A DNA stretch of 64,000 nucleotides, taken from Nereocystis luetkeana. Its lineage: Eukaryota > Sar > Phaeophyceae > Laminariales > Laminariaceae. Under the pieces are notes generated by a model. That model worked only from the letters and a program-made list of their open reading frames with translations, searched no databases and was not told the DNA's origin. The position numbers and the translations under genes are program-made. Numbering within the stretch: position 1 is the first letter of the stretch; the number at the start of each line of letters is the position of its first letter. Shown in pieces: positions 1,306 to 62,007 of this stretch. The stretch lies in assembly GCA_031213475.1 (NCBI GenBank), contig JARUPZ010000003.1, positions 9,498,266 through 9,562,265 of the forward strand. Reading direction: 5' to 3'.

Positions 1306-2317
1306 CTGAAAACAGAACACAAAACATAAAAACATATTGCAATCACCACGCCAACGAAAGAGAAAACATCAAAAAAACGACGACGACGACGGCAACGACG
1401 GCGACAAAAAAAACGACGAGGAGTTCCAGGAAAGGGGAGTGGCATTCGTGCGACGAAGATGGAGGGGAGCGGGGGGTGAGGAGGCGGAACGGGGTGGGCG
1501 AAGAGGGAGGCGTACCAACCTCAAATAAATGAGGCGGGCAGGATGGGTGCGCTTGGGTCGCGGAGACCTTCATGGCGCTACGTGTGCGCGTTTTTTTTGC
1601 TGTTTTGCTTCATCCGACCTTCACCCGGGCGAGTAGACCTCCCCTCCCCGCCCCGCCCCGGCCTCCGTCGCGAAAGGGACGCGTGGTCAAGGGTCGAATG
1701 ATCATGAACACAAGCAACAAGGGAGTACCCCCCCCCCCCCCCCCCCCTCACTCCCCCGCTCCTCTCTCCTCGTGGCAATCCTGCGGCACAATACCTACGA
1801 TCGTAGTGGCAGCATATTAATAAATATTTAATACCTGGTACCTGGTAGCAGAGTAGATACCCTCCCCGGCTGAATTACACTACGGTGTGGCGTCAAATCG
1901 TCAACAGGCATACATATATACTGGTATATATATACATACGCATCCACAAATGAAACCATGCACCCCGCCGAGAAAGCTTTCATATGGCGGTATTCATACA
2001 CAGCAGTGCGAGAAAAAACACACCCGGTGCTGGGCCCAAAACCAGCCCCAGCAGTTTGACGGGGTAGTGTTACCGACCCTCTAGAAGGGGGGGGCTAATC
2101 GACGGGAAAAAAAAAATGACCACGTACAGCTACTATTACGGCCACTGCGTGATTGGGGGTCTTCTTGCAGACCGGGGGAAGGAGGAGTCGTGCGGCACGG
2201 GTCCCACATCAGGATCCTGTCAGTACCGTTGGGAGCTCACGTGCTGATTGCAGACCGTTGAAAACACCAAAATTGACATTGTTTCGGACTCTTATCTTTT
2301 GGGTCCAAAAGGGAGCA
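1306..2317. other. Putative intron sequence, no gene seen
   Basis: Contains a 20-base C tract (1728-1747), TATTAATA at 1815-1822 and an overlapping pair of TACCTGGTA motifs at 1832-1847. The coiled coil does not extend into it. Confidence 0.5.
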
Positions 2318-2412
2318 TCGACCCGTTCAGCACAGCAGTCCCGTTTGCGGAACAAACCACATAGAATTTGAGTGATTGGTCCCCACAACGGAACTGCAGC
2401 CCTAAATAGGGC
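2318..2412. repeat. Family B hairpin element
   Basis: Left arm GACCCGTTCAGCACAGCAGT, right arm ending ACTGCAGCCCTAAATAGGG. The arms are still mostly complementary. A family A element starts about 10 bp downstream. Confidence 0.75.
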
Positions 2413-2421
2413 TGATGTTAA

Positions 2422-2530
2422 TATTACGGGGGACCATAGTAAATAGGACCAATTATTGTTGTAAAAATAGGTAAGTATCTAGGTGTTTGTGTGTACCGTA
2501 GGTCCTATTTAATAGGGTCCTTCGTAATAG
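2422..2530. mobile_element. MITE family A copy (AAATAGG arm type)
   Basis: Starts TATTACGGGGGACCATAG and ends with a slightly mutated CTTCGTAATA. Arms carry AAATAGG on the left and CCTATTT on the right. Confidence 0.85.
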
Positions 2531-2556
2531 TAGGTGGTGAAAGAAAGGGGCGGTAT

Positions 2557-2652
2557 TGACCCCTTTAGAACCGCAGTCCCGATTTGGGGACAAACTACTT
2601 AAAGTTTGAGTGGTTTGTCCCCGAATCGAGACTGCGGTTCTAAAAGGGTTAA
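2557..2652. repeat. Family B hairpin element, well preserved
   Basis: Left arm starts ACCCCTTTAGAACCGCAGTC; right arm ends GACTGCGGTTCTAAAAGGGT and is followed by TAA. The loop is only a few bases long. Confidence 0.9.
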
Positions 2653-2840
2653 TAGTAATAGTAGTGACGAACCATCGAACACGTCTTCATATAAACCAGG
2701 CACCAGGTACCAGGTACGATACATGGTACGTACCGTACGTATAATATTGATGGGTCCATCCCATCGCTCTCCCCCGCTCGTGCTCCGTCGCCGACATGCA
2801 CACGACGTGCACCGGTCTTTCGTTTCATTTCGTATTGTTT

Positions 2841-2913
2841 TATAACGGGGGACCATAGTCTATATTTCTACTAACAATATTTGGTCCTATTAACTATCCC
2901 CCCCCCTAATAGT
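2841..2913. mobile_element. MITE family A copy, internally deleted
   Basis: Both ends survive (TATAACGGGGGACCATAG and TGGTCCTATTAACTAT), but the element is only about 73 bp and the right end has become a C run. Confidence 0.6.
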
Positions 2914-3078
2914 AACATCATAGTATGTAGCTTTATTGGATTGAATTATTTAGGTTGGCAAATCGTGCAAGGATTTTGAATTCTTCCTGCTTTGAATTTG
3001 AGGTGTACGATGTGTTCCAGCCATGATCTGGGGGCTGTTTTTTTTTTTTGTACTCTTCCGATTTTACTTGTGTTTTTT

Positions 3079-3145
3079 TCCACTGGTATTCTTCCGCTCC
3101 AGTTTTGGGAGCCCGCTCTGCTGAGAACACGGACTCAATATTTAG
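3079..3145 (+). repeat. Repeat G copy
   Basis: Shares the order GGTATTCTTCC-CTCC, GGAGCC, then ACGGACT with copies at 40831-40910 and 42800-42890. The nature of the parent element is unknown. Confidence 0.6.
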
Positions 3146-3153
3146 GGCACCAG

Positions 3154-3249: not shown

Positions 3250-3819
3250 CTGTGATAAAAACAACAATCGGTTAATCAAATTGCACCTTCTGCGTGCTCG
3301 TATGATACGCGAGATAAATAAACTACCTTTAGTGAATAGGAAGACGGGTACGTACGTACAAAAACGTTACCGTCGTACAAAATGAAAATAAACGCTCTTA
3401 TTACATCTTTAGGTATTATATTACCAGGTATCAGAGCATTCAAGTAAGATCCGTAAATTCATCGCCACGCGGACATGTGATACGCACAGGGATGACAGCT
3501 ACATACGGCGACAAGGGGATGGAGGGGGGCAGCCGTACTGATAGAGCCGTTGACGACCGCAGAAACGGAATGATAAGAGCTATGATAGTTGTGGCTAAGA
3601 AGTATCGGTTCGACTTTTAGCAATTGGATTCTATCGACATTAACATGGAGAAGTTTTTGGGTTTCTTGTTGAGTGGTTGGGGGTGGGGGGAGGGGGGGAG
3701 ACAGCGGCAGTACGGACACTTGACACCGCTACTGACGAGAGTAGGAAAGAGACGGCCGAGAGAGTGGCTAGATTTCCGAATCGGTTTTCTATCAATTAGC
3801 AGGGACGGGACACCCATGT
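3250..3819. other. No gene seen
   Basis: AT-rich in the first half; G runs near 3670-3700. No exon-like frame. Confidence 0.5.
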
Positions 3820-4159: not shown

Positions 4160-4596
4160 TTAATACCAACGCCTGGGATACGATTTCCTCTTTTCTTCTT
4201 TCTCCTTTCTCTCATTTTTCTTGCTTTTTTTTTTGCCATGTCTCTCCCTTAGTTTCATTTACCCTCCCCACCCGTCCTTCGGTCGGTATATCCATCTCCT
4301 TCGTGTTGCTTTGTCCGTGCAGCAGCTATCTGTCCTTCTCGAGTGCGTATGTTTTCGTTCTATTATTAATAGTAACACTACCTGGTACCTGGTATTAAAT
4401 AGCATCATTTCTGATCTCCTTGCGTCATTTGTATTAAGTTTCATTTTTTGGATTCTTGTCTTTTTTTTTTCTCCTATTTTCAGGTCGTACTTACTTGTGT
4501 CGTTGTGTCTCGTACCCGGTACGCTGGTACACAGCAGTATTTCACTTGCTTTGCCCACGACTTCGCGAATATTTTTGCCTTTTGGTTTTTCTCTGT

Positions 4597-6540: not shown

Positions 6541-7467
6541 AGGAACGAACGACTTTCTGCCTGTTGCTTAGGGAAAAGCGTGTATGTATGTACGTGTAGA
6601 AAACAACCCCTAAAAATTGAATCGGACTCGGAACCGTAAACGCACACCGAAATAAAAAAAAACTGGCTGAATAAGTGATGAAAACCATAGTAACCTCGTG
6701 CGTAGGTTTTGGTTTTAATTGCCTTCCCCTCGGTTTTCTTCTCCCGACTGATGCTTGTGAGCCATAAACGTCGAAGGTCATGATGCTATCTGTCGTTGAT
6801 ATTGTTCTCAGATTGACTCATGTCCAAAATACTGAGTCCGTGGTCGAAGACAAGGACAGGAGGACAGGCTCCACACACATTTAAATTGGAGCGGGATAAT
6901 ACCTCAGGGGGAGAAAGAGTCAACTGAAACAAGGACTCGTAGTACAAACAAAAACAGCCGTACCAGGTACCAGGTATGCAACAACATCATCGCTGAAGCA
7001 CACACACCATATATATACCGTACGTGGGAAGTACGTAGTACACCTTCGACAGGAGAAAGCAAAACCGTCGCACGATCTGCAACCCAATCCAATCCAAAGC
7101 AATGGGGTCGCATATAATAACACGAACAAAAAACAGAACCAACCCGGAAAAATAACCTGGCGCGAAATGAAGTGATTTGGAAGTGAAGTGAAATGAAACA
7201 CACATAAAATCTACTACTAACTGCTGTAAGCAAAACGACGACAAATAAAATCCCAAGGAGAAAAGGAGCTACAAGCAGTCAGTCGCCCTATTCATAGGTA
7301 CGCACGAGTACAAAACAAAGGGACGAACGAACGCACCGCGAAGGAGATGAAATGAAAGCGGAGCGAAAGAGCTGAACAGGAGACCTATTAATAGGAAATG
7401 CCGGAGACGAACGCAACAAAAATAACAACACTCGCATTCATACCAGTATATACGTACCTGGTATTAA
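6541..7467. other. No gene seen
   Basis: Contains a doubled TACCAGGTA at 6960-6975 and TATTAATA at 7386-7393. The open frames on either strand lack domain signatures. Confidence 0.5.
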
Positions 7468-7583
7468 TATTACGGGGGACCATAGTTAATAGGACCTATG
7501 GTATAGATAAAACCTACCAGGTATATATTCAACCATTTTTACTAACAATATTTGGTCCTATTAACTGTGGTCCCCCGTAATAG
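7468..7583. mobile_element. MITE family A copy (TTAATAGG arm type)
   Basis: Ends TATTACGGGGGACCATAG and CCCCCGTAATA; arms GTTAATAGGACC and GGTCCTATTAAC match each other. It sits directly against an older TATTAATA (7462-7469). Internally it carries one extra CCTGGTA heptamer between ATATA and GGTTTT (read on the minus strand). Confidence 0.9.
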
Positions 7584-7760
7584 TAAACGCCATGATGGGT
7601 ACCTGGGGTCAAATCGACTTTCAACATCAGTTACTGCTGTCGTATGAATATAAATAGTATCAGGCGACAGCTATTATGACTTGACATGTACCAGGTAACA
7701 AGCATTACGAATGTATACACTGCTATGTATGAGCACTGCTATTATAAGTGTATTTATACT

Positions 7761-9712: not shown

Positions 9713-10134
9713 ACTATTAATGGTACCCTTTGTAGCACCGTAGGGTACGTACATATAACATATACCTGGTACCAGGTACCTGGTAATATATTATGTATAT
9801 ACACCTGGCGTGTATGTACTACAGTTGTGTACTCTATCCGGAAATGAAGACACCGTTTTGGCCAAGTCGCCCCAATACCCAGGCAGTCCCTTCCATTGTC
9901 GGGCAAGAGTTGGGTCGTGACACGTGCATACACCCTCTCGCCGGAAACACAAGCAACGTTTTGAGTTTTCACGTAGAGCATTCCGGACAGATAATTGGTC
10001 ATCATACGTACGTACGAGCACAACGTATGTCCCAGCGTACGTGTAAGGAAGGTTTGGTGGGCATTCGCATGAAAAACTCTTTCGGTTCCTATTGTTACTA
10101 TAATATGTTTCTATAATAATAGGTTTTTGCTCAG
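9713..10134. other. Motif-rich spacer
   Basis: Holds a triple heptamer TACCTGGTACCAGGTACC at about 9762-9784, showing CCTGGTA and CCAGGTA side by side. No gene seen. Confidence 0.6.
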
Positions 10135-10903: not shown

Positions 10904-11260
10904 TTAATAGCCATGGGGATAGTTCGTCGGGTAGCACTTACATTTTTCTCAGATATCAGTTTTGGGGTGTCACTGGAATGTAATGTAGAGCGGCTCCTTG
11001 ACGTCACGCGAGGACATTCAGAAAATAATATGGTGCACCTCTTCCACTACAGGAGTAGTGATGGTCAAGCAGTAGTAGCTCAGTAGTTTAGTAGTATTAG
11101 TATAGTGGCAGCACTCATAAACATCCCCGGAAATGAAAAAAACAAAAAAAGGAAAAACTTGATATTGATAGTATATGATGTAGCCAATACGTGGAAGGAA
11201 CGAAGGGAATTTGACATATCTGGTACCAGGTATTTATTTACCAGATATAGCCACTCTTAA

Positions 11261-11379
11261 TATTACGGGGGACCATAGTTAACAGGACCTATGGTATACA
11301 TAAAAACCTGGTACCTGGTATATGTTTAACCATTTTTACTAACAATATTTGGTCCTGTTAACTATGGCCCCCCATAATA
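11261..11379. mobile_element. MITE family A copy (TTAACAGG arm type)
   Basis: Arms GTTAACAGGACC and GGTCCTGTTAAC match each other but differ from other subtypes. It carries a 10 bp CCAGGTA-type insertion between ATATA and GGTTTTT (minus reading) that plain copies lack. Right end mutated to CCATAATA. Confidence 0.9.
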
Positions 11380-11932: not shown

Positions 11933-12040
11933 GGCAAAAACAAAACAAAATGCCCCCGACTAGAGCGACAGAGTAGGCGACAGAAAAACAACCAACCGAG
12001 ATGATACGATGCCCATACCTGGTACTACAGGTACTATTAA

Positions 12041-12143
12041 TATTACGGGGGACCACAGTTAGTAGGACCAAATATTGTTATTAATAGTAAAAATGGTTAA
12101 ATACATACCAGGTACCTGGTACTGGTAGGTTTTAAGGATATTC
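12041..12143 (+). mobile_element. MITE family A, right end missing, with two micro-insertions
   Basis: Begins TATTACGGGGGACCACAG but never reaches the right repeat. Relative to other copies it has an extra TTAATA inside TATTGTTAGTAAAA (12079-12086 reads TATTAATA) and about 20 bp of CCAGGTA/CCTGGTA units between ATA and GGTTTT. A SINE begins about 20 bp further on. Confidence 0.85.
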
Positions 12144-15496: not shown

Positions 15497-15686
15497 GTGA
15501 TATTTGAGGACGCAAACGATGCATACGTTTCCGGCCGGAGTGGAAATTACCTATCAATAGCAAGTAAATACTTCGTACTTGAATACCTGGTAAACAATGC
15601 AGGATACTGGCAAAAGGCGGAAGCTACCCACGGCTACTGATCTACCGCGGGTTGCCGTACCGATTTATTATTACTGAGCATTACAT

Positions 15687-17537: not shown

Positions 17538-18766
17538 AACAGAGGGGGACGAACAAACCGGTCAGCAGTCAGTACTAAAACGTTGTTGAGTATTTCGCCG
17601 CGGGCTGGATTCGTTCGGATCACGCTTGCTCGCTCGCATGTTCGTACGTGTTCGTCGGGGAAAGGCGGGGCATACAGGCCGGTGGGCGGGTGGGAGGGGG
17701 CAGAGATGGAGGAGTAAGTCTGTGGAGGGTGCGCTTTTCTTTTGTGCACGGTGTGTGTACACGCGAGCCCTACAGCTACCCTCTGGACGTGCAGTAGATC
17801 CACGGAGTAGTAGTAGATAGAGCCGATTGCTCGACGGAATAGTGAAGATGGGACCACGGAATGACGGGGAGGGGGGAGGGCGGGGCGTCCGTTTTTTTCT
17901 CCAACGGAAGTATAATTTTCTTGGGGGGAGGGGGGGGTTACCTTTCGCTTTTTCCCTCATTAACCGTAGAGTATCGTAAAAAAATCATAGCTTTCTGAGA
18001 GGGAGGGGGGGGGTGATAGATAGGTACGAGCTGACCCCAACAGGGGTAGCTTCCTAGGGGGGGGGGGAGTACCTTGTACCTTTTATTCGCCCTTTACAAA
18101 AGTCTACATACACGAATCATGTTGAAATACTATACCAGGTATATGCGATACTTTACTTCAATAATTTTCGCTTGGGCCTGACGGCTTGTCGTCTGTAGAG
18201 AGTATATATATATATATATAATTACATATATATTAGATGGATGTATATGCGTGTGTACGTACATATTGTACACAAGGTATGATAATATGATGCACCGAGA
18301 GAACGATGCGACACGACGCAAAGACTGTCCGCCTCAAGAGCTGCGCCCGTCCCGATGTCCAACACCATGGCGGTGGAGGTGGCGGCGGGTTGCGGTGATG
18401 TCGTGCAAAAATCGGTCGGGGCTTTCTTTGGTTTCTCGGGCCTTATTCTATACGCACACGATATAAGAGCGGCTGACTCCGCCGCTAACTACAGCACCAG
18501 CCTATGCCGCCTATAATTCCAGGGTACGAGAGGTACATAACATCGGGTGATAATATCAATACGATTATTAATAGTCAACTCGCTGATTAGTCGGCGTGCT
18601 ATGTACGAACACACAAGACAACTGCCAGAGGCGTTCTGTCCACCCCCCACTGTTTGAACCTCGAATGCCCTCCCAAGGTCTAGTGCGCAATTCAACGGAG
18701 AAAGACACATGGATGAACACGACTGATGCTACACGCATCTCGTACTCTGTACGCACGCATCATGCT
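17538..18766. other. No gene seen
   Basis: G-rich blocks at 17860-17940 and 18000-18070, an AT-rich TATATA run at about 18200-18240, and TATTAATA at 18566-18573. Confidence 0.5.
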
Positions 18767-19755: not shown

Positions 19756-19871
19756 TATTACGGGGGACACTAGCAAATAGGACCTAACTGTGTTAGTGGA
19801 AATATGTAAATATATACCTGGTAGGTTTTTGTGTGTATCGTAGGTCGTATTTAATATGGTCCTCCGTAATA
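19756..19871. mobile_element. MITE family A copy with one heptamer insertion
   Basis: TATTACGGGGGACACTAG to CCTCCGTAATA. The interior reads ATATATACCTGGTAGGTTTT where plain copies read ATATAGGTTTT, an exact extra CCTGGTA. Confidence 0.88.
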
Positions 19872-21160: not shown

Positions 21161-21460
21161 TCTCCACGCTTTACGCCGAGCTGAGCCGAGCCGAGCCGGG
21201 CTTGTCGGTCGGTCCATCGCACAGCGAGCGGTCCGGTCCGGTCCGGGCCGATGCCGTCACGGTTGATATTTCGCACCAGTACTGTTTTCGATTATTGTAC
21301 TATTAATATTACTACGACGAGTACTATTTTGTGATCACAGCGGTTTGTATTCAGTTTTTTTTTGTGTTTTTAACACAACAGGCATTGGATAAACCATAAC
21401 GTGTACCTGGTATGTATATTATGCTTTTCGTACCCACTACGTCTCGGCCTTCCTTACCTC

Positions 21461-24270: not shown

Positions 24271-26060
24271 TGCTATGTCAGTGGTAGGTCACCGTCATTT
24301 CACCCACGCGATATTTTTTATCCCTGTGCTTTTTCTGCGTTATAAAAACACAAGCAGAGCCCGGGGTTTTCATATACGACGAACGAGGGGAACGGGGTAC
24401 GGTTTACGGGGGGAAATGCGCAACGCGGAGCGGAGGGGGGGGGGGGTGTGGCTGGTGTTCTCCACCGAAGCTTTGCTTGGTGTGGCCACATTGGCAACAC
24501 TCCGCAGTATGTAACGCCGCGGTGTACACGAAAAGACAGTACGCAATCGCTTTTTTTTTATGCCGATTTATAGTACTTTGCGGAGGGGGGGGGGGGCAAC
24601 TAATTCGTACACGTACGTGGTTCCGTTTTTTGTATGCCGAATTCGTCATCGCGTGCCCGTGTTTTGTTCTTTTTTGTTCGGGGGTATTTTGCTCGGGGGC
24701 GCCGCACGAGCCATGGCAGAGCTATCATAGTGTGAACGTAGAAAGCTCATCCGAGTGTTCGCGCCACATAGGGTTAGGCACTAGTAAGCCTGACCCGTAA
24801 GTGTACCCAGAAAAAGCGTTATTTCTCGCTGCGCCCGCGGGCAGGTCGACGCAACCCCAACGCGACCTCTCGCACGCCTGTGTAAGCGCCTCAGACACCC
24901 AGCCTCCAACGAAAAAAAAAACGCAACCAGGTTTCGAGATATAATTATATATATTATATATATACATATATACTTCAGTATACATATATGTGTGCCAGGC
25001 TGCTACATCTCTTTTTCCTCCGTACGAGAGAGAGGGAGAGAACTTTCGAGATACCGGTGACGTGGCCGTCAGGAACGCATGTTCGCACAAACTTTCAAGT
25101 TACCGAAAATTGTTTGATCGCACGTTCGAAATGCATCTGGTTCATATATGGCATGGTATGTTTCTGACGGTGATAAAATACCGGTACGAATCATGTATAA
25201 TTATGTATATATATAGAGAGAAGTGGATCTTGGTGCGATGTGTTTTTTTAGTTCTCGTGTCCCCCTCCCCCTCCATTTCAGGTAAAAACTATGGGAAGAG
25301 AAACACCAGGGGGCGTTTAAAAACGGTACTCTCCCGTACCAGGTACGTAGATACTCTGGGTGAACCAGATTAACAGGTCACTTCGTACACGTCACACTGT
25401 TCTCTGTGTACCCGGGTATGAACCCGAGCATGACCAACACGAACAGGGTTGCAACCCGGGTAGAATGAGTACCCCAAATCAAGTATCTGGCACCCGGTAT
25501 GTACCATGCTGGCACTATTATCAACACCCTCGAAACGTGGCCAGGGTACTACATACCCACAAGTAGGAAGGGTGATTGACACATGTATGAATGTATGCGT
25601 GGGATACGGCGGACTTTTCTTGTGGACGACCACCCCCAACCTTTGGTCCCCCACCCTTTTTTACACGGTTAGCCCACGGCCCTCATTTCTGCGCACACGG
25701 CCTTCTTCACGCTATTTCGCGCATCGGGTATCTGGTACGAACTGGCATCCCACGCTGAGGAAAAAACTTCGATCTCACAGCTCAGGCGTTTCAAAGTTTC
25801 CAGGCTTATTGTCCAAACGTAGACGTGTGCTGCAGCTGGTGTACTACTGTATCGATTAGGCGTGTCTCGTCTAGAAAACCCGACGAGACACGCGCAGGGA
25901 GATAGATGGTGTGGATTGTTGGGGATGCACACAAGTGGTGTTGGTGTTGTCCTTGTGTTCGATATTCCAAGGACTTTCGTAGCTATTCATAGAGTTGGGG
26001 CGCATTTTCTACACTCATGGTTGAAGCACACCATAGTACTGCCTCTTGTTTAGGAGACAA
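24271..26060. other. No gene seen
   Basis: Mixed unique DNA with a TATATA tract near 24940-24985 and several diverged ACCCGGTA/CCAGGTA motifs (25330-25500). No exon-like frame passes inspection. Confidence 0.5.
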
Positions 26061-34865: not shown

Positions 34866-34913
34866 ATATAAATACCAGGTATGTACGTGTATACATACTC
34901 GTACAGCAGTTAC

Positions 34914-38137: not shown

Positions 38138-38271
38138 TACTGGTATGTATATACACCAGCGGTATGATATACCAGGTATGTACGTAGTGCTGTTGTTGTA
38201 CGGGTTCGTAAACGTGTCACATCACACGTACAGCAAGCAGCACACAGAGGTACATCCACGTATGTTCATAC

Positions 38272-38436: not shown

Positions 38437-39302
38437 AGTTCATATTGTGTTGTGATCGGATTCGTAGTCTTGAAATTTTGATAATCCTGTGGTGCGGTGG
38501 TGGGGTGCTTTTGTGTTAAAAGGCCAGCTCACACGTTGCGCTGCGGTCAAACCGCGTCGAACCGCACCGCAAAAACAGCGCGCAACTTTGTCAAGAAGAA
38601 AGCCTTGATTAATACCAGGTGCTTGCGTTCATTGCGCTGTCTGTTGAGACCTGTACCTATCAATAGTGTAGAAACAGGAACCAGGTATAAACCAAGGGAA
38701 AAAACTATCAGTGTAATCTGCTACTACTCCAGGGATGGAAGATTATGGGCGACATTCCGGATATTGGCAGCTGCATACAGCGGTATTCCGTTTTCGGTTT
38801 TTCGAAGAACGGTCGGCGTGTCGGCTTCTTCCTCATCTAACCAAACATCAATCAGTAAATAACAAACTACCGCCTCTGCCGAATCGTATCATATACTGGT
38901 ACACACACGATAATACGAAAAGATCCTGCCTCATGATTGCAGAGCAATTTAGAAAAAAAAAACGAGTGGTGGCCAACAATCCCGAATCACACAGGCAGCG
39001 GCAAAACGTACTACCTGGTATAGCCTGCACCTGTTGATACGCGCCGGTTGATACGAGGAGGAAGCGTTGCGTATCTCAGCTATTAACTCTCATCATGTGC
39101 TCTGTACTTTTTCTCGATAGCAGTTCGTGCGTACGAGTATAAACCAGACACGCGGTCCTGCTCGTGTTGTTGTGTTCTCGTACCCGGTACGCTGGCATTT
39201 CACTTGCTTGACACTTGAATTTGCGATTATTTTCATTTTTTTTTTGTCTTTCACAGCAGTGAGTGTGTGTTTTGTCTTTCTCTGTCTTGCACAGCAGTGA
39301 GC
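38437..39302. other. No gene seen
   Basis: Several TACCAGGTA-type motifs and AT-rich DNA. Confidence 0.5.
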
Positions 39303-39819
39303 AGTGAGTGTGTGTGTTCTTCACATCAAACGGTTCTTTCTACCCGCCGACATCCAGCACAACCAGTGTCCGCGCCGATTCTTCAATCCTCGAAGAGCTA
39401 CAAGTTCTGTGGCCACAAAGCTGGTACGCCACAGAGTTACTACGTTGCCACGTACCTGGTATACAGTAAGCACAGCATGGCGGGCAATGCGATGCCATGT
39501 CATTATACTGGATACGACAGGCACGACATACATGTTCTATGAAATAGAGAAACGGAAGGAGACAAAGAAAAAACAAAAACAAATGACAAATCGACAGAGA
39601 AAAAAAATAAATAGAATAACCAAACTGTCGTGCCCCCCCCCCCGCAGGCGATGTGGCAAACACTTCAAGAAAACAAGCCGGAAAAAAAAAGAAGAAAAAC
39701 ACCACTAATAATACTTGTAAACAGAGTAGGCCGAAAACCCAAGGGAAAATAACAGCAGGCAAACTAAACCACAGGCACTCTCCAGGTAGCGGCAGCAGTT
39801 TGTGGTACGAGTAGCATAG
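39303..39819 (-). mobile_element. LINE family X, 5'-truncated, minus orientation, with heptamer insertion
   Basis: GTGAGTGTGTGTGTTCTTCA (reversed CA tail) to GGTAGCGGCAGCAGTTTGTG. Compared with 33.6-34.3 kb it has an extra CCTGGTA after CCACGTA (about 39455) and a GGT insertion making CTGGTACGCC near 39422. Confidence 0.85.
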
Positions 39820-39833
39820 AGAGGTATATATAG

Positions 39834-39943
39834 TCTGTGACCACAGAACCAGTATCTCTATCAATAGGATAATGAATCAGGACGGACACTGGGTGTACCA
39901 GGTATCGATGAAGCTGGGTCGTAGAATGGACGATTGTAGACAA
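39834..39943 (+). mobile_element. LINE family X tail, diverged, plus orientation
   Basis: CTGTGACCACAGAACCAGTA, TCTCTATCAATAGGATAATG and ACGGACACTGGGTG. Head-to-head with the previous copy. TATCAATA here marks the site where 50.7 kb lacks the hexamer. Confidence 0.65.
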
Positions 39944-40952: not shown

Positions 40953-42546
40953 GTATCATACTGCTGTACGGGAGAGGGTCAGTGCGATGAATATATACAG
41001 CCAGTACATTATGTGTACCATTTGTTATCATACCAGCTAATGTACGAGAGAAAAAACAATTCGCAATCGATTCGGATACGGGGACGGCTCTTGGAAATTG
41101 TTTTTTTTGCCTGTTTTTACGAATAGTACCGTCAGTTATATACCAGGTACATACGTCCCGTGTAAAGTCTGCAGGTCTACGAGTACTTATACGCACACTG
41201 ATGTGCCAGTACAGATAGTACGTACGTAAGATGCGAAAAAATGTCACTCGGCCGGGTGTGTGTGTTGATGTGCCGATTGATCGATATAATTAGGAAAATA
41301 CTGGGGGTGTCATTCAGTGCGGACGATGCGTGTGGCGTGCTCCTGATGACTGACGCCTGGCGTGCTCCATGCGTGCCATCGTCTCCTCGTTCTCTCTTTC
41401 CACCCCCATTTCCCCCTGTGTGCCCTCACAGCGCCTCGCCTTATAGAACTGGACACACCTCTCGGGGACGGAAAAAGTCTTTTTGAAAAATTACTATTGA
41501 AACCAGGATACGATTTAGTGTGGGGAAAAATTGTAGCCATTGTAAAAGGGCCAAAGCTGTACGAGAGTATCGTGTTGATCATTCGTGAGACAGCAAACCC
41601 TCTCGGACGTATTTCGAAGAAGGCGGAAGGGTCATTCTCCCGACCACAGGGAGGGCGTAGAAAAACGCCGAGATCGACCCACCCATAGAAATGTCCAGCG
41701 CCCACCATTATCACGGAGTGTGCCCGACCGTCCACCATGGTTTGCAGAAAAACGGCACCGAAATTCTTCACTGGGGGTGTGTAATCTTTATCACCCGTCC
41801 GTGTGATACCTCATCACCCGTGTAATGTATTACGACCCGTTCGTGTGTAATATCATCACCCGTGAGATACGGTGGAATCTACCTGATGTCTGGGCAACAA
41901 CAGGCCGCCGCACCCAGCCACAACACCTAAACCAGCCAAAAGCACTAGGAGTCGAGAAGCACACGGATCTGCACTCCAGATACGCACGAGTACCTGGTAC
42001 GATTGTCTTTATATACGTACGCAAATCAACTGTTACTGCAGCTGTGGACGGCAGAAAAATTGACTTCTTCTACCCCTGGCACTTTTTACACAATATGTTC
42101 ACCTCGTATGGTACATGATATCATACACCAGGACACCGGGAATCCCCAATCTATACCAGGTACATCGCGTATGACGTATCATCAACGTGTGTGAAATAAT
42201 ACAACGGCGGTACAACTGCGGCCGCCTGCTGCGCCATGTGCACTTACTTGTACTTAGAATGCAGAATCTCAAGTCTAAAAGTGTCAAACTACTGCTTTTA
42301 AGTGCTGTAGTAAGTTCGAACGACTTTGTATACGACGACTTGCGCCCAGTCGACCAGACCCCTACGGTCGGCGAGGGGATTTCACCACTCCTTTTCGTCT
42401 CCTTTTTTTCTCCTCTTCTCTTCTTTCCTTTCTTTCTTTGCCGGCTTCTTCACCGTTTTCTCCTTGTTTCTTTTTCTTGGAGTGATATTCTTTTTTTTTT
42501 CCAACGTGTAATTTGCTCGAGATGTACAATGTACTCCGGTTATGAT
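40953..42546. other. Mostly unique DNA; degraded gene fragment possible near 41440-41690
   Basis: The plus frame 41435-41688 (LIELDTPLGDGKSLFEKLL, then KPGYDLVWGKIVAIVKGPKL) reads like real protein and follows a CCCTCACAG acceptor-like site, but I find no family. At 41775-41870 a loose repeat of ATCACCCGT and GTGTAAT words occurs. Confidence 0.35.
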
Positions 42547-42890: not shown

Positions 42891-43116
42891 AATAACAACA
42901 TATTCGACCTATAAGCATGGTTGAGAGTCTGGCTGTCTACGATATAAAACTCACCGTGATGATAACAATGACTCTAACAAACGTCGATCAGACTTGATCA
43001 ACTTGTTGGGACCGTAAACCGGAGCCAATCAGACCCCATCGAATACAAGTATTAATACTGTACCTGGTATACGTCGATACATGTATCATATATTCTACGT
43101 ATATACGAGTATTACA

Positions 43117-43337: not shown

Positions 43338-44130
43338 GCCAACCGCAACCATAGTAGTAGTTAGTGTCGAATAGCGAAATAAAAGTGCTGAGAGCTATTA
43401 ATAATACTGCGGTCGGCAGCACCGCCGAAACCTCAGTCAGAATAATTTGTAATGTGCATTAATAAATATGACATACTGAAACGTGCGACATTTTTGAACA
43501 CACGTTGGGACAGTTTGGACACGCGTTTCGATTATGGAATATTGTTGCCGGCACATTCGGAATGTCTGTTCATGTCTTGTTGTGTGAATTGGTTATACGA
43601 AGCTCACGAGAAAAAAGGGCCCACCAACTGCCATCAACTGCCCACCTACTATTTTTAATATACTGCTGTGGTAGTGTTGTACGAACCTCCAAGTACTACC
43701 TGTACCCACAACGCGCCACACACGGCAGCAGCAGCGTCAGCAGCAGCGACAGCACAGAGAAGAGGGGCGCAGAATAAGAAGAGCTATACGTACTGCATCT
43801 ATCTACTACCTGCTCGTATAAGAACTGTTTTTCTCATTGCTCCCACGGCTGTGGCCACGAACAGTAGTCATATTTATACGGTGGTTGATGGTCGCCCACC
43901 AAAAAACCCTGATACCACTAAACCATCGATCGAACGAGTGCTGTGATGTGTAGACGTCGGCAATGCTGCTTTCGCTTGCTGTATGACCCAAAGGCATGGC
44001 TTCAAATACGTACCCTCCGACGAGTATCCTATTAATGGCGGTATAAGGGAATGCCAGATTAAGTTGTCGTACAAAATCAAGTGGGAATTGTGCAATACGG
44101 TGTACCAGGTATGTTGTTCAAGGCTGTAGT

Positions 44131-44307: not shown

Positions 44308-44745
44308 AATCGCTACTTTCTACCCGTCGACATCCAGCGCACCCAGTGTCCGTGACGAGTCTTCAATCACTTACAACACCTACTACTGTGGTCGCAAAAT
44401 TACAACACAGACCATACCTGGTATGACGTATGCAGTATGCGGAGTAGACAATACAATGCCATGTTATCATACCGGATACGACAGGCACGGCATACATAGG
44501 CATTCTCGCATGAGTTGAAGGATGGAGAAAAAACGAAGGAAACAAGAGGAAAACAAATTGAATCAAAAGAGAAAAGAAAAGTGTCATATGCCCCCAAAAG
44601 GAGGCAGAAAGACACGACAAATAATACCACAACAAATAAACAGAGTGAGGTTACGGACGAAAGAAAGGAAAGGACGGGAAAAACGAAGCACAACAAAAAC
44701 ACCCTCCAGGCAGCCACAGCAGCAGTTTCAGTTACGAGAAGTACG
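44308..44745 (-). mobile_element. LINE family X, 5'-truncated, diverged, minus orientation
   Basis: TTTCTACCCGTCGACATCCA to CCCTCCAGGCAGCCACAGCA. It carries a TACCTGGTA at about 44414 that is absent at the same place in the 33.7 kb copy. Head-to-head with the fragment just before it. Confidence 0.75.
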
Positions 44746-45510
44746 GACAGCTTTTACATACTACATACTACATGAGTATAATAGTAGTCGGTCTGATACC
44801 AATGCTTCCCTGTCTGCCGTCTCTTTCCTCCTTCCGTCAACCGCGGTTTCCCGCGACACCCTTGCGAAGACAAGAGGAAAGAAAGAAAAGGCAAAGATAA
44901 CACACGCGGAGTTCGTCCTGATTCTTTTTTTTAGAGAGATTACAAGGTACCTGGTACGTACAAATGATGTGGACACACAGACTGTGAGAGAAATACCACC
45001 GAACGAAAATAGTTGGTGGCCTACGAACGGTGGCCAAAAATAGATTGAAACGAAACACAGCCACGTACGCACGCACGCACGCGAGGAAAAAGGCAGGTGG
45101 ATGATGCTGGTCGGGGTGATGATTCGTCAAGTGTCCAGGGGGGCGCAAGGAAAGCTTTGCACGAGCTCCCTTGGTGTATGATATGATATGGTGGAATGCC
45201 ATATTTTTTATACGTACCTTCGCGCGACATCTATCCGGGGCAAAACAAAACAAGGCCTGTCTGCAAAAAAAAATGTATCGGGGTTGCGAGCTCATTAGGC
45301 CGGCGGCGCAAATACAAGTACTTTGTTACCTCATGCTGTATACAAGTATAAGCTCGTATGCATGTGAATACTTCGTTACACCTTACACTAGTATTTGGTC
45401 TTGAGTGATACCCTGGTATGTATATACCAATGGTATTCATTTGGATCCTGCTGAGGTCGGGTGTGTTTAGCGGGTGTGTTTAGCATTGATTTATGTTTCC
45501 GGTTGCCTTT
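44746..45510. other. No gene seen
   Basis: Unique DNA with motif copies. The GCAC run near 45065-45080 is short. Confidence 0.5.
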
Positions 45511-45840: not shown

Positions 45841-46399
45841 TGCAACGAGCAAAAAAAAAAAAGCGAGAAACGACCACAAGACCATGACAACTGAACAACA
45901 CAATCACTTACAAATACGATACTACTGTACCAGATATCATATACCAGGTATACGATACGCGATACGCGAGAAAGAAAAAAGAAAGGAACACAGAAACAGG
46001 GAGGATCAGAAGGCGGTCCGAGGATGCGCGGTGTCCAGGCGGTTTTTTCATTCACGATTCGCCAGGGGTTAAATTTAATTACGCTAACTTGTGACTTGTG
46101 ACCGTCCGAGACGAGACTGGCGCCCGGGTACGTGCTGCGTGTGTCTGTCTTCTTGTTTGCTTCGTTTTTTCATCATAACTTCTGAAGAAAAACGGTTAAA
46201 AATGTGTTCTACCAGGTACTTGGTACGTTGTTCAGGTAAAAACACAAATGGCCCAAACAGAGACGTCACAAGCCAGACCGCAGTGATGGTTCATTTTTCC
46301 AAGTCGAAGTGCAAGAGAGTTCAAGCATCTCACCAGTGCATCACCACGCATCGCATTTTGTGGTCTACTATATATATATCTGTGTCGTACCAGGTATGT
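45841..46399. other. No gene seen
   Basis: Unique DNA with TACCAGGTA-type motifs near 45945, 46210 and 46390. Confidence 0.5.
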
Positions 46400-46829: not shown

Positions 46830-48749
46830 ACATTCTATTGAAATATTAGTGTTCATAGTGTGATGTCCAATTTCACACCATGTACAGCAACAGGGTACCA
46901 GGTTGGTGTAAACTATGTGATAATACACTTCTGTCCCATGGTCGCATTGGCAGGAAGGTGTTTTCGCTACTGACTCTGTACCAACAATCTAGGACTGCTC
47001 CGAGACGGAAAAAGAACGACGGACAAAACAACGCACGCGGTTGGTGCGCCGCTCACACCACAAGCCGACGCTATTAATAGTATTGATAGTAGCGAAACGC
47101 CCAGGCGGGAAAGTGGTCCACGCCATCACTCCCCGAAACTTCACAAACAAAACGCAAAACTAATGCCTTGCCAAGAAGTAGAGAGGGGTGGGTGGTGTGG
47201 GTAGGTGGGCATCTTTATTTCAGGTCATGAGCCTCGATACGTGCATCATTATCTCCAGGGAAAACAAGCAGCAGTCGACCGCGTCCCGATCGTGTTTATG
47301 CCCGCCTCGCCGAATCTCTTGGACCTCTTTCCTGCCCCTCTCTATTTCGTACATAATACCGTACCTGGTATGATATACCTGGTACACCACTTTTCTCTTA
47401 ATACCTCGGTACCATATCATACTGCTGTCACAGAAAGTTTTTTTTTTTTTTGTGAAAGGATGTGAATACGCAGTACATGATGGATGCACGTCGTATCGAT
47501 ACGAACATGGAGCCATGACTACTGCTGTAGTTTATGTGGCATTATTATAAGCCGTCGGGCGGTTTTGGATGTCACTGTCCGAACACACACGGAGGAACGG
47601 ATACTAATGTATCGGCCGCGGGTACGAAGTGCATAGTATAACGATGCTGAGCGCTGCATTCATTAATTCGACCAAGATATTATGAATATACCCAACATAC
47701 CTGGTAATGAATACCAGGTATCATTTCTATGGTACAAATAATAGTTTGTGTACTATTTAATAAGTATATTCCGGTATTTCACAAGCATGTCGTAAGTATA
47801 TATACCTACAATACTGGTATCTATGACGAGACTCTTTGTTTTTTGCACTGCTGGGCTCGAACGAAAATAGTTTTTTTCAACACCAGCTCTAGCTCTTGTC
47901 TGATGATTTGACATCCTCTGGCTACTCTTTAGGATCACTCGTATACGATACGATGTAAATCATGTGTGCGTCGTAGCACTTGACAATCTATCAATAGATG
48001 CGAGCACAACAATGCCTTCGATGGTGGTACAGATAATTTAACGTGGGTGGACCGGGTTGACTTCCGAAACAAGAATTGCACAGATAAGGGAATCTAGCTG
48101 GGAGGGGGGGTAGGTCGTGGAGGGAGGGAGGGAAGGGTGACAGAAAAACAAAAACGGGGACATAACAACAGCGCCACAAAAACCACACCGACACACCTCG
48201 TGTGATGAAATAATACACTGAAGCGCAGCGAGGCAAATGGCGTAATAAACATCGAAGTTTTCACAACGATCAACCTCTATTTCACGTCCCGTACCTTTTT
48301 ACCTTCCAAACGCGATAAAAAAAATAGGCCAGTGGTGTTGATTTTACAGCAGCAGTTTGTATAATCGTATTGTCTGCCAGGTATTACGGCAGTAGTCGTA
48401 GGTGTGCTGCGCTGGACAAAATCCAGCCAACAATAAACAAATGCACCAAAAAATATCGTACCACGTAGTAAACGGCCAAATAGTCTGAAATCAAGGTTCC
48501 GACAGAGTAATAAAGTACGTACAGCAGTAAATCATGTCTAGAAAGTGAGGAACGAAGGCTATACTGCTGTACGAGTACATAGAACGAACGCATGTATATA
48601 CCAGGTATACAAGTATAAACTCGTAGCTCAAGTACGAAGTACCAGCATATTTTTACATGGCAGCAACGAAGGCAAAAACAAAAAACAACACTGAGGTAGG
48701 ATGGCTGGCGAGAGAGCGAAAGAGCACAACAACAAGAAAAAAAGCGTAC
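46830..48749. other. Motif-dense spacer, no gene seen
   Basis: Contains TATTAATA (47072-47079), TACTGCTGTA (about 47519 and 48556) and numerous CCWGGTA motifs. Unique otherwise. Confidence 0.5.
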
Positions 48750-54235: not shown

Positions 54236-54944
54236 TATATCGCCACATAGTAGGATAATAACAAAAACTGAATCAATGCTTCGTGCGCCAGCAACAACAT
54301 ACAACAACTAACTGCAGTGGGATTGATTATGTGGAATCGCAAGATAAACAAAGGGGGATATCATATAATATACGTACATATTTTCATTTACGTACAGGGT
54401 ATATATACATATGATGTGTATACGTATATGTATCGTGCGCGGTAAGATCGATTACGTTATATAATACGTGATTATATAACGATGATAATGTACTGTGAGT
54501 AGAACAATGGCAATATTTCTCACGATGTGATATTTTTTTGGGAATTGTGGAACTAAACGTATACCATGGTACCGTTGATGTACGTATATACTTCGTATCA
54601 AGAGTAACATCCAATCCATCCGTCATCATACGTTCATCCTTTCACGTATCGTCATATGTGTTATATCGTACACTGGTGTTAATTAATGTTGGTGGTGCTC
54701 TATACGACGAGTGAATGATGAGTACCTGGACCAGGTTGTAATATTGAATAATAGATGGAAGAGAAATGATCAGACTGACCAGACCACGTGGATGACGGGT
54801 TGATTTGATCCGGATATCATATCATATAATAATATCGCACCAAACCACCTGATTATTTGATTGCCTGATCCTTGCTTCATACATACCAGGTACCAGGTAG
54901 CATTGAACAGCCTACCAGGCTCTCCGGTCTCGTTGAAGAATTGC
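54236..54944. other. AT-rich spacer, no gene seen
   Basis: Many TACGTA/ATACGT words around 54350-54600 and paired TACCAGGTA near 54885-54899. Confidence 0.5.
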
Positions 54945-57310: not shown

Positions 57311-58942
57311 ATTATTCGAGAATAAATAGAACGATTTATATACCAGGTATATATACTACGTAGCCTCCCTTACACTCATATTTTCGGCAGAAATAATCCA
57401 ATATATTTCTTATGGAGTGTTTTCGCCTCGAGTTTTAGCCGTCGCCGTGGAGATTGGGGCGAATCTGTGAATTAACGTGCATGTATAAACCTTGGTATAC
57501 TTTACAACCAGTTCTGCAGAATTGGTTACGTCTCGGGGCAGATGATGGATTCGCCCGTCGTGGTCTGCCGCCGATCTCTCAAGCCAGATCTTTGCCCGAT
57601 CTTGTATAATACTGCTCATGTTGTCAGACGAGACGCGTAATAACAATCTGCATGATCTATGAATAGCGCATGTTTCCTGGTTTGATAGGTATAACGTATG
57701 CAGATCCTGCGCTGCCTCTCACAACAGCAGGCGCGGAACTAATTATCTACTGTTAATACTGTTTGCAGATCATGCAATGATCTGTGTCCGACGTGTGGAA
57801 AGCTTCCTGGAAAATTATTTGGAGCGGCGGCTAATTTTGCGGCGATTTTTTATACTCCCCAGGGTTAGCTACCACAGCAGTGCTCAGTGCTGTACGAGGA
57901 AGGATCAGATAGGCAAACTTTAGTACAACTACCCACTCGCTCTTGGCAGTAAATAATACAGAGTGTCGACCCTGGTGTACTGCTGTGTATCTGGTATTTA
58001 TACGTAGTTAGTGATGTTTGATAGGATAGATGGGTTGATAAAAAATATCGCTCAAAGTCTGGACGTTATTATAAATACATTTTGAACATTAACATCTAGA
58101 CTAGACGGTCCTCACATTTCCGCCCAGATTTGAGTGGTTGGTAAATACTGTCAATAATCATGTGTGTTTTAAAAGGGAAATAAACGAAGCGTGTTGTAAA
58201 AAAAAGCATGGCGAGCATTTATTTGCCCCAGGTGCCCGATTGAATGGACACCAAAATATGGGATGGACGGAGGATGCGTTAGTATGGGAGAGCGAAAAAT
58301 CATGAGATTCCCAGTGAGAATCGAGAGTGGGGAGAGCGGGAGAGTAGGGACAGGTAGTGGTAGGTGGCGCGTCGGTGGTTATTAGTGGCACACGCACTTT
58401 AACTCTCTTCCACATCGTTGAATTACCTCGCTCGGCAATAAGTAGCCGCCATTGTAAGTGACAAGTCGCGATAGTTCGGGTAGATTTGCACGATGCGGTC
58501 TTCGGGCTGCTGTACTGCTGTCCGACCACGACTGCCCTCCTGTGGCGCAGCGACGCTCCACCGTCTACATATTTCCTGGTGCTCGTTCTTACTCCGTGCT
58601 GTGCTGTACGTTGTACGTGCGTATTCTAGCCGCCTTGTGTGATAAGTGACAGCGGCATGCGTCCCCTTCCCGTTCCCAACAAGGAGAGGGGCCTGAACGC
58701 ATAAAATTGAAATAAATGCACTGCCGGTGAATCAATCAATGCCAGGCTTTAACCAATAAGTTCAAAGTCTAGTTGATGTTTCTTCTTCTTCTTGTTCTTA
58801 TTCTTATTCTTATTCTTCTTCTTCTTCGTCTTGCCCCCCTTTCCAACCAAAGCAAAGCAAAGCCCGCCGTACGAGAGGCTGAAACCTCAACGAGCGAACG
58901 GCCTTCTGGGCTACAAGCCGCGTGCTCACATCACTCATGGTG

Positions 58943-59278: not shown

Positions 59279-59388
59279 TATTACGGGGGACCATAGTTAA
59301 TAGGACCAAATATTGTTAGTAAAAATAGGTGAATATATAGTTATTTTGTGTCTACCGTAGGTCCTATTAACTATGGTTCCCCGTAATA
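59279..59388. mobile_element. MITE family A copy (TTAATAGG arm type)
   Basis: TATTACGGGGGACCATAG to TTCCCCGTAATA with matching TTAATAGG/CCTATTAA arms; sits against a SINE fragment. Confidence 0.92.
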
Positions 59389-59389
59389 G

Positions 59390-59540
59390 TCGTAATTTAG
59401 GTTCGGGGTCGCACTGCAGGCTCTCCTACAACACCGTTCGCACTAGGTACGGACCGCGCCCCTTATTTTCTTTATCGCGAGCATAGGCTGCATTCGGCCC
59501 TTCCTTCTCCTCCCCTCCTGGTCGCCTCACTCGCGTCTAA
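59390..59540 (-). mobile_element. SINE fragment, old
   Basis: GTCGTAATTTAGGTTCGGGG, TTTATCGCGAGCATAGGCTG, then CCTCCTGGTCGCC in SINE order. Confidence 0.6.
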
Positions 59541-60509
59541 TTTCTGCCGTCTACTTTCTTCCACGGATCTCGCCAACCGTCGCTGCTTTTAGGCGCGCAG
59601 TATTGCGTTTGTTTGTGTTTTCCCTCCGACCAAACTACTAAATATCATACGCACGTGTGCACCATGTCGTGAGCTTCAGCGATGATCGCTCACAAACGTT
59701 CTCGGAGAACAAAGAAACAAAAACCAAAAAAAAAAGAAAAAAAAAAAGATAAAAACCAAAGGCAACCGAAAAGCAAAATAAGAAGAAGCCCCACCTATGT
59801 ATGCGCAAAGCCTACGAGCCACTCCCTTTTTTTGGGTGCCTAAAACTTCTCCCGCTTTCTTTTATCTTAGATCTGAATACCAAACGCGGATAGTGTTTCC
59901 GGCTACAGAGCGGCGGTATCTACTTCGCTGCCCTTGCCCATTCCTCGCTAACAACGATAGTAGTAGTACTTGGAAGCTCTGCATACGCGACGGGAGAAGA
60001 CTCGGGAAAAAAAGGCGGTTTTTGTGTATCGTTTTGCACCAGAATGCAGATTAACCGACAATCGATTGCCAGTGCGATCGCCCCCAACCAGTCCGGAAGC
60101 AGCTGGCGGAAAATCTGCCCGTTGAGGCGAGGTTCCTCAGAAGCGCCCGAACAAAAGTGACGCCGGTCTAATAAGGGGGGCGGGGGGGCGGTTCGTCACG
60201 AAACGGAAACGTTTTTTTTGCCCCCGATGGTGATATTGTTTCCGGCTTCCGCTCACCACGGCGGCCCCCACCTCGACCCGGAACTCTCGATCTAACGATG
60301 TGTGACCCTAGGCCTGACCCCAACCAGAGAGAGGCCGTATGGCTTGCTTGCTGCTTGCTGATTGGTTGCTGTACCGGCTGGTCGTTGTGCTTGGAAAGGC
60401 TCTATTTTCTGCTCGGGGACGTCTATCTCGTTATCTCAGGAAGTTCGCCTGAACGTGCAAATCTGGGAGGAGCGCCATTTAATTTCCAGTTGTAGACCAC
60501 AACAAACAG
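59541..60509. other. No gene seen; repeat D remnant at 59660-59735
   Basis: CATGTCGTGAGCTTCAGCGA and ACGTTCTCGGAGAACAAAGA are a diverged D copy. The rest is unique. Confidence 0.5.
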
Positions 60510-60515
60510 TCGTAT

Positions 60516-60592
60516 TAGTAGTAGTAGTAGTAGTAGTAGTAAATAGTAGTAGTAGTAGTAGTAGTAGTAAGTAGTAGTAGTTGCAGTATTAA

Positions 60593-60652
<60 letters not shown>

Positions 60653-60731
60653 TAGTAGTAGTAGTAGTGGTAGTAGTAGTAGTAGTAGTAGCAGTGGTAG
60701 TAGTAGTAGTGGTAGTAGTAGTAGTAGCAGC
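60516..60731. repeat. TAG trinucleotide array with TATTAATA interruption
   Basis: Two TAG blocks separated near 60572-60600 by TTGCAG, then TATTAATA (60587-60594). Later units include TGG variants. Confidence 0.95.
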
Positions 60732-61059
60732 CACTCCACCTGTGTGTATATCCGGTAACGAGCGAGTCGTCGTCTTTTCAAAGTTTGCTCTTCTCTCCAC
60801 ACTGAAAACCCGATGCTGCACATAAAAATCAGGGGTGCGCCTTGCCCGTACCGGCTCGCGAACGGGTCGTAAAATACATACCAGGTACATTGCAGCAAAG
60901 CCTACCTGGCACCACTCTGGGTGTCTGTCAATATAAGGGTCACGTCATGCTGATATTAATGCATAAACTGTCTTTATATTTCTGCCCAGAGTAGTACAAT
61001 ACCTGGTATATCATACCTTCTGCGCGCGACGAAAACTACTGTATGCGCGCAACAGTTAC
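60732..61059. other. No gene seen
   Basis: Contains TACCAGGTA (about 60880) and TACCTGGTA (about 61002). Confidence 0.5.
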
Positions 61060-61320
61060 AAAACAGCTATTTTTGTATGGACCGCGAGTTTTTGGTCGAT
61101 ATTTCTTCGGAATGACTCGGGGGGGGGGGGGGGGCTGGACACCTTGCGGACGGGGGGGGGGGAAAGAGAGAAACGGCAGTAGTAATAGGAGTAGCATGTT
61201 GGGGGGAGGGAGGTGAGGGATGCTCGTTTGTTGCTTGCCATAGTCATTTAACCGTTGACCACGCATCCCTTTCGAGACGGAGCGCCGTTCCTACTCCTGA
61301 TAGAGACACCTCCATTATTT
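61060..61320 (+). repeat. Repeat N plus repeat F variant around G runs
   Basis: GTTTTTGGTCGATATTTCTT before a G run (about 61119-61134), then TTGCTTGCCATAGTCATTTA and CCTTTCGAGACGGAGCG. The first block recurs at 61690-61730 and the second at 56375-56430. Confidence 0.65.
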
Positions 61321-62007
61321 TGTACTCAGGTTTATTAGTAATAGTTGATACCTGGTACCTGGCAGCATTTTCCACGTTTGAAGTCTGTGGATTTTACAGC
61401 AGTAGTGTTGCCCTTTTGATATGTGGATGGTAACGTTGGAAAAAGAGCTGCTCATTGTCAGATGGCAAATTAAATATTATTAATGATAATATCTCGGGGG
61501 GGGAAGAGGGGGAGGGGGGTAAAGCTACACAGCAAGCGGAACGGCAGGGATACTTTCCGTGAAAACGTCCGAAAATAACCGATGACAGCAGTTCGGGCCA
61601 ACAGCAACAACACCGCACGACCTTCTGCGCCTTGAAACAAGCACGTGGCAGTTTTACAAACAAGCATTTTTTTTTCGGATGACAGCGGATTTTTGGTCGA
61701 TGGTTCGTAGGGAAAAAACTACAGGGGGGTCTGGGGTCGGTCTCCCTTTCTGAGACATAAGATGCAGGACACGCCCTACGTGCAGGACGGGTTGGCACAC
61801 AATTTACTGTAGTGCAGCAAGCGGTTCTTGGTCAAGGCTGGCATTTCGGCCTCCCCGATGTGTGCTGGAAAAACGCCACCCAAAATATTACAACGCCTCC
61901 GGTGATGTACAATGCTTTTGTTTTATGTATATACTCCCCCCCTTCTCTTTACGAATTGTCACGAGGGGGTGGATGGGGATGATATCAATTCATTGCCTAC
62001 CACTACG
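61321..62007. other. No gene seen; second repeat N copy
   Basis: ATTTTTGGTCGATGGTTCGT at about 61690 is the second N copy. A D-like fragment (ATTGTCAGATGGCAAATTAA) lies near 61453. Confidence 0.5.

Follow-up and report, generated by a model that had tools for sequence, protein, structure and literature searches.

A TA-flanked heptamer in Nereocystis luetkeana as a probable excision footprint of a plant-type mariner family

A 64,000-nucleotide stretch of the Nereocystis luetkeana genome (contig JARUPZ010000003.1, positions 9,498,266 to 9,562,265; hereafter the window) carries the palindrome TACCWGGTA (W is A or T) at many places, which raises the question of what leaves the same seven base pairs at so many TA dinucleotides. 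A preliminary description of the window had taken the heptamer for an excision scar. Our analysis supports this reading. TACCWGGTA is very probably the repaired break that remains after a mariner-type element with ends beginning CCA is excised from a TA. The candidate element belongs to a plant-type mariner family that occupies the very TA where scars also occur in MITE A, a miniature inverted-repeat transposable element (MITE) of this genome.

Abundance and distribution of the heptamer

The window contains 57 copies of TACCWGGTA (TACCAGGTA or TACCTGGTA), compared with a mean of 0.47 and a maximum of 3 in 100 shuffled versions. The more than fifty heptamers first noted are thus confirmed, and the excess is far larger genome-wide, with 182,395 copies in 465,085,209 bases (1,987 contigs) against 1,744 for the same pattern reversed. 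The scars sum to approximately 1.3 Mb of the 465 Mb genome. The central base in the window is A in 30 copies and T in 27, and the copies form 50 runs, of which 44 are single, five double and one triple (9763-9785). Doubled and tripled units with either central base had been described before, and mixed units do occur (T-A-T at 9763, A-T at 12106). The runs in the window are listed below; no strand is assigned to the pattern.

1832..1847, run of two scars (T, T)
2708..2716, scar with a degenerate unit ahead
3422..3430, scar
4379..4394, run of two scars (T, T)
6961..6976, run of two scars (A, A)
7455..7463, scar directly ahead of a MITE A copy
7515..7523, scar in the MITE A hot spot
7689..7697, scar
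9763..9785, run of three scars (T, A, T)
11224..11232, scar
11312..11320, scar in the MITE A hot spot, net gain of 10 bp relative to empty copies, truncated unit ahead
12016..12024, scar
12106..12121, run of two scars (A, T) in the MITE A hot spot, then CTGGTA
15584..15592, scar
18133..18141, scar
19815..19823, scar in the MITE A hot spot, 2-base gap in 14 of 20 aligned rows
21404..21412, scar
25337..25345, scar
28554..28562, scar, bare TA in both aligned rows
29009..29017, scar
29911..29919, scar
30597..30605, scar adjoining two degenerate units (30589, 30604)
32717..32725, scar
32846..32854, scar
34873..34881, scar
37249..37257, scar
38170..38178, scar
39012..39020, scar
39453..39461, scar in the 'LINE X' repeat, TA in the L007 copy and TACGTA in the copy at window 33779
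39896..39904, scar
41141..41149, scar
41991..41999, scar
42154..42162, scar
43061..43069, scar
44103..44111, scar
44415..44423, scar, two poor aligned rows and no clean empty site
44948..44956, scar
45942..45950, scar
46210..46218, scar
46388..46396, scar
47362..47370, scar, next one 14 bp on
47376..47384, scar, previous one 14 bp back
47698..47706, scar, next one 14 bp on
47712..47720, scar, previous one 14 bp back
48599..48607, scar
54884..54899, run of two scars (A, A)
57341..57349, scar
60879..60887, scar
61000..61008, scar
61349..61357, scar

Further counts come from 318 kb of sampled sequence in 36 stretches including the window, a non-random set chosen in part by motif or transposase match. 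The scars are unevenly distributed in this sample (mean 4.4, variance 13.5 over 26 bins of 10 kb). Among the eight pairs closer than 60 bp, four have a gap of 5, equivalent to a spacing of 14 bp; such pairs are found at window 47362/47376 and 47698/47712, with others in L004 and L033. This spacing fits the target preference for T and A/T at positions +6 and +7 described below. One-substitution variants of the scar number 106 where 69.1 are expected, an excess of about 37. Set against 133 perfect scars in nearly the same set of sequences, this corresponds to a decay of roughly 3% per site, by which estimate the scars are young on average.

The sample contains 122 runs (112 single, nine double and one triple), and the ten multi-copy runs exceed the mean of 0.46 (largest 3) obtained for insertions at random TAs. 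Such a surplus might be expected of a 7-bp tandem repeat that spreads by slippage or templated addition in the manner of telomeres. However, the great majority of runs are single, W can vary between units of one run, and single copies are present at places where related repeat copies show TA alone. The multi-copy runs also fit re-insertion at a preferred TA, and we give the tandem repeat explanation next to no credence.

Gain of seven base pairs at TA in repeat copies

We compared 117 runs with the sampled sequence, and 14 had an aligned relative across the site (97 rows). The change between repeat copies is from TA to TACCWGGTA, a gain of 7 bp at a TA. Clean empty sites read bare TA in both rows at window 28554 and in all three rows at L030:2269, four TA and one CA in the five rows at L012:7563, and one TA and one TG at L014:1556. 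The preliminary description had reported a gain at 39.455 kb in a repeat it named 'LINE X', after the long interspersed nuclear elements (LINEs), and the coordinates are right: of the two relatives at window 39453, one has TA (L007) and the other TACGTA (window 33779). At L019:6350 there is a 4-base gap in 8 of 12 rows, shifted by a neighboring indel or deletion, and the alignments at L011:8154 and window 44415 are poor. In the L013/L014 duplication the heptamer is kept in both copies (three rows), so those scars predate the duplication.

MITE A copies without the heptamer have ATATAGGTTTTT at the corresponding place. The gap in their alignment is 2 bases in 14 of 20 rows at window 19815, not all of which read TA, and 3 bases in 14 of 21 rows at window 7515, where a one-base difference in an A run of this copy adds to the gap. 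At window 11312 it is -1 in 16 of 24 rows, a gain of 10 bp. The 12.1-kb copy carries 7+7+6 bp as read from its sequence context. The indels originally described for MITE A, namely one heptamer at 7515 and 19815, 10 bp at 11.3 kb and 20 bp (7+7+6) at 12.1 kb, are all reproduced.

MITE A hot spot

The repeat copies of MITE A constitute a natural excision assay complete with repair products. The MITE has 2,064 candidate places in the genome, 40 of which were scored. Using a gapped pattern, we identified 285 copies genome-wide with 1-31 extra bases at the hot spot (control, 0), and classed the inserts of 100. The exact scar accounts for 60 of these: one TA holds 50 and its neighbor 10, with W equally often A and T (30 each). 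Minor products are CCGG (3), CCATGG (3) and CCCTGG (2). The rest include remnants of a single end, one doubled unit, variants differing at one base, short TA-rich inserts and a non-scar variant, CTCCGTATA, as three tandem copies. Two palindromic inserts unrelated to the CCWGG scar, TACTCCGGAGTA and TACTTCGAAGTA (C2:3872716 and C7:5751145), are probably scars of further TA elements.

When plain scars are excluded, 47 hot-spot matches are left, mostly doubled, tripled or imperfect scars together with intact insertions. Two of the 47 are intact elements with ends CCACTCYGAC (L041 and L042; Y is a pyrimidine). Scars and intact elements therefore occur at the same TA.

Candidate source element

The ends of this family read TA|CCA(G/C)TCYGAC, that is, 5'-CCA(G/C)TC...GA(G/C)TGG-3'. 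L041 (C29:6151060) is an 84-bp MITE, counting both TAs, in which a TA is followed by CCACTCTGACCC, an inverted repeat and a second TA. There are 167 candidate places for it in the genome (40 scored, 71 match rows). We fetched 20 copies, and 17 extend from TA to TA; the other three (L060-L062), without TA at both ends, were excluded. Two of the 20, L053 and L057, sit in the TA of a scar.

L042 (C35:3888130) is a 1.2-kb element with a deleted transposase copy, whose minus strand encodes a protein with a Tc3-type helix-turn-helix (HTH) part (PF01498, E 7.9e-8, over the cut-off; DUF7769, E 2.1e-5, under it). Another insertion, at C32:3175838 (CCTGTGCCGAAATATAAGCC), has a transposase match roughly 0.2 kb away, at C32:3175145-3175624. 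Searching the genome with the L042 protein gives 52 matches, part of them on duplicated contigs; the best after L042 itself are 99% alike, and one of them has a 489-codon open frame. The most complete element, L066, spans 2,020 bp including both TAs, begins TA|CCAGTCCGACATTTTATATAGG, and has a 33-bp terminal inverted repeat (TIR) at 97%. Its single 492-codon open frame matches DUF7769 (E 2.6e-7, over the cut-off) and PF01498 (E 4.4e-5, under it). There are 39 residues between the aspartates taken as second and third, with the triad read from motifs, a spacing characteristic of the DD39D class of plant-type mariner transposases.

Going by these sequence characters, which comprise TA duplication (L041, L066 and 17 of 20 MITEs), TIRs (L066 and L041), the HTH part and the D-D spacing of 39, the family is a plant-type mariner of the Tc1/mariner superfamily. 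The TIR character fails in L042, where the right end differs. Exact intact ends number 281 genome-wide (control, 0), a lower bound on the family, and of 100 that were read 32 are CCAG and 68 CCAC. The preliminary description had proposed searching the genome for a TA-targeting element with termini CCW...WGG; a candidate was found, but its termini are CCA...TGG.

Other searches for a source did not lead to this element. About 100 half sites of the form TACCWGG-notTA in 288 kb are, by eye, largely single-base mutants or pieces of longer repeats, and no inner sequence is common to copies in different surroundings. TA-bounded inverted-repeat pairs yielded MITE A and others and no free-standing element ending in CCA. 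The region at window 51572-52011 is bounded by CCA on either side, but there the inverted repeat runs on into the flanks. DDE_3 and Transposase_1 searches gave no lead. There are 28 DDE_1 (pogo) matches in the genome; no TIR beginning CCA was found in the 10 examined together with 1.5 kb of sequence to either side. Scanning viral contigs for the transposase turned up no relative, and a PDB sequence search returned one match, at E 0.26. Two motifs were rejected: seven of ten places responsible for the apparent enrichment of TACCAGTGTA are one satellite in L026, and TACCACTCTGTCCC in L015/L018 is part of a larger repeat.

Target preference of scars and intact elements

When each run is removed and one TA kept, the sites show a palindromic target motif R-TA-Y (R is a purine), with T at position 6 and A/T at position 7 (236 oriented sites, 34,002 background). 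The alternating purine-pyrimidine core resembles Tc1-type targets. Bendable target sites are treated in PMC7827188. We examined the same positions in 19 intact elements (38 flanks), a set that includes L041, chosen from the hot spot, and in which kinship between copies may limit independence. The flanks have Y at +1 in 31 of 38 (P 0.0046), R at +2 in 25 of 38 (P 0.0058), T at +6 in 23 of 38 (background 0.22, P 4.8e-7) and A/T at +7 in 33 of 38 (background 0.47, P 3.9e-7). A matrix trained on scars places intact elements above random TAs (Mann-Whitney P 3.9e-7).

The motif also bears on whether selection maintains the heptamer itself, as a binding site or as a palindrome with some other function, which its symmetry and good preservation (the ~3% per-site decay) might suggest. 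A selected site would hardly be expected to come and go as 7 bp at a TA among repeat copies, to have a palindromic target motif outside the heptamer, or to be accompanied by the minor products expected of break repair, and we attach scarcely any weight to this explanation.

The blunt product predicted from ends reading CCA is CCATGG and not CCTAGG. The genome counts agree: TACCATGGTA (CCATGG) occurs 3,002 times (control, 623), and TACCTAGGTA (CCTAGG) 175 times (control, 182). Taken together, the shared TA, the shared target signature and this asymmetry among minor scars support a tie between the scars and the CCA-ended mariner family.

Proposed mechanism

We propose that a mariner-type element with termini 5'-CCA(G/C)TCYGAC would duplicate TA upon insertion, and that its transposase would later cleave the non-transferred strand a few bases inward from either end, leaving 3' overhangs of CCA (or CCAG) on both broken flanks. 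On joining, the A bases of the two flanks would face each other, and copying of the partner's CC to GG would produce a duplex of two CCAGG strands with a single A.A mismatch, to be fixed as A or T by replication or repair. Since intact ends are CCAG or CCAC, the GG of the scar is best read as a copy of the partner's CC. Doubled and tripled runs would reflect repeated insertion and excision at one preferred TA. The terminal bases that excision leaves between two TAs are present as historical scars only. Three points of this scheme are inferred: whether the stagger is 3 or 4 nt, how the ends are joined, and that most scars stem from this family.

The preliminary description had traced W to repair of a single mismatched base where two ends meet, and an A.A overlap of CCA ends would explain it, as well as the preponderance of TACCATGGTA over TACCTAGGTA. 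W could also result from random trimming of one A off one of two filled-in 3-nt ends; loss of no A would leave CCATGG, loss of one CCWGG and loss of both CCGG, and each of these is observed. However, CCWGG makes up 60 of these 66 products at the hot spot, with three of each of the others, and independent loss of A allows at most one-half. The ends thus seem to have been aligned together, the two A bases probably as an A.A mismatch, and trimming is a very unlikely origin of W. If the stagger is 4 nt and the ends are CCAG, the mismatch would be flanked and stabilized by two C-G pairs, as happens in Sleeping Beauty. A 3-nt stagger would leave A.A as the sole contact, yet this fits CCAC ends and CCATGG. 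Neither CCAGCTGG nor CCACGTGG was seen between TAs in the 318 kb sample.

Several observations weigh against an origin of the scars from this family by this route. The 68 of 100 ends that read CCAC are unable to self-pair at a 4-nt stagger, and a 3-nt stagger leaves the A.A contact alone. T at +3 is found in only 13 of 38 intact-element flanks, which is non-significant (P 0.13). Both ends are readable in L066 only of four transposase loci (L063-L066), and L063 begins CCAGGAGTCCGAC. L042 is irregular, a slight objection, with a doubled unit of ~20 bp at its left end and a right end, CCAGGTAACC, that is no mirror. No DDE Pfam model matches the L066 protein at E 0.1, PF13358 has no match anywhere in the genome, and PF01359 has none there or in the control genomes. 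No intact family member was recognized in the window.

Finally, there are 281 exact intact ends and 182,395 scars, so that either excision far exceeds retention or other families contribute. The footprints could derive mostly from another TA-targeting family, extinct or unsampled, with the same CCA terminal bases. The ratio of roughly 650 to 1 would be in keeping with this, some inserts among the 47 hot-spot matches are unassigned (for example C30:6594543), and a separate TA element does exist: a TIR element in L039 (C872; duplicate L040, C2:7.92 Mb) with a DDE_1 match inside and ends CGCGACAGC (TA|CGCGACAGCACTTAAGAAT). However, the recognizable intact insertions in the hot spot belong to the CCASTC (S is G or C) TIR family or resemble its decayed members, and copies of that family have the target signature of the scars. 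We consider a different family unlikely to be the main source. L039 and L040 are identical over 7,945 bp, indicating duplicated contigs in the assembly.

A second scar, TATTAATA, is present at 73 sites in 318 kb (for example window 12035, 28221 and 38380), an enrichment of 142 against 3.2 with both strands counted. It is the product predicted from the ends of MITE A itself (TT...AA), and G at +1 (53% compared with 23% in the background) is common to TATTAATA (67 sites) and MITE A (30 copies). It is likely, from this agreement, the excision scar of MITE A.

Other features of the window

The open frame at window 12593-14308 encodes a reverse transcriptase (RVT_1, E 5e-36) in a LINE-like element; nine other open frames scanned in the window have no Pfam match. 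Short palindromic elements of one MITE family, whose arms resemble CCCTTTTAGAACCGCAG, occur at window 2559-2651, 10657-10746, 52195-52284 and elsewhere, and several copies terminate in GGGTTAA; by appearance the family is putatively piggyBac-like. Two pairs of direct repeats, 16049-16348/16391-16690 (300 nt) and 3890-4148/14920-15178 (259 nt), are 100% identical and are recent duplications. Long TAC/TAG/TAA trinucleotide arrays are found at 20287-20617, 60505-60759 and 62897-63118. The G+C content is near 50%.

Comparison with known systems

Stowaway elements have ends reading CTCCC, which differ from the CCASTC ends found here. The Mos1 terminus begins CCAGG and excision of Mos1 leaves behind three bases from one end (TACCATA/TATGGTA), whereas TACCATA shows no excess here (42 observed, 42.1 expected). 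Footprints of the plant-type mariner/Stowaway elements Osmar5 and Ppmar2 keep 1-4 terminal bases, according to PMC1925063 and PMC9632168. The same papers describe further likenesses, including a TA target, short TIRs, MITE derivatives and insertion beside an earlier footprint at one TA. However, the Osmar5 and Ppmar2 footprints described there are several and distinct or diverse, while a single product, CCWGG, dominates here. Sleeping Beauty/Tc1 has two consensus scars, TACAGTA and TACTGTA, that differ in the central A/T alone (PMC4378557), and its 3-nt 3' overhangs are joined by non-homologous end joining (PMC7827188). The central A/T is shared with the scar described here, but five scar bases lie between the TAs instead of three, and the element belongs to another branch of the superfamily. 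The first mariner nick falls three nucleotides inside the element, as also stated in PMC7827188. Mariner-Tc1 families of Ectocarpus likewise combine autonomous elements with abundant MITE derivatives, as reported in PMC12477816, and the word 'footprint' is absent from the main text of that paper.

Our literature searches on the motif, scars and footprints returned no description of this scar among the matches listed. Mariner-type footprints are known and the mechanism is of a known kind; the surprise is the scale. Within those matches, this scar, the dominance of a single product, the identified source and the numbers look new.

Implications

It is conceivable, though unlikely, that the mariner family excises after nearly every insertion through a specialized end-joining process with a nearly single product, in parallel with the programmed excision of ciliates, such that a few hundred copies persist while hundreds of thousands of TAs are scarred, and that other TA families (TATTAATA, MITE A) behave likewise. 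A TA-bounded palindrome of this kind may pass for a regulatory motif, and caution is warranted. Assemblies usually reveal little of excision, and here approximately 182,000 scars, datable by their decay, provide a countable history of departed insertions. The loss and retention of DNA transposons, their choice of targets and the fidelity of end joining would become measurable from sequence alone.

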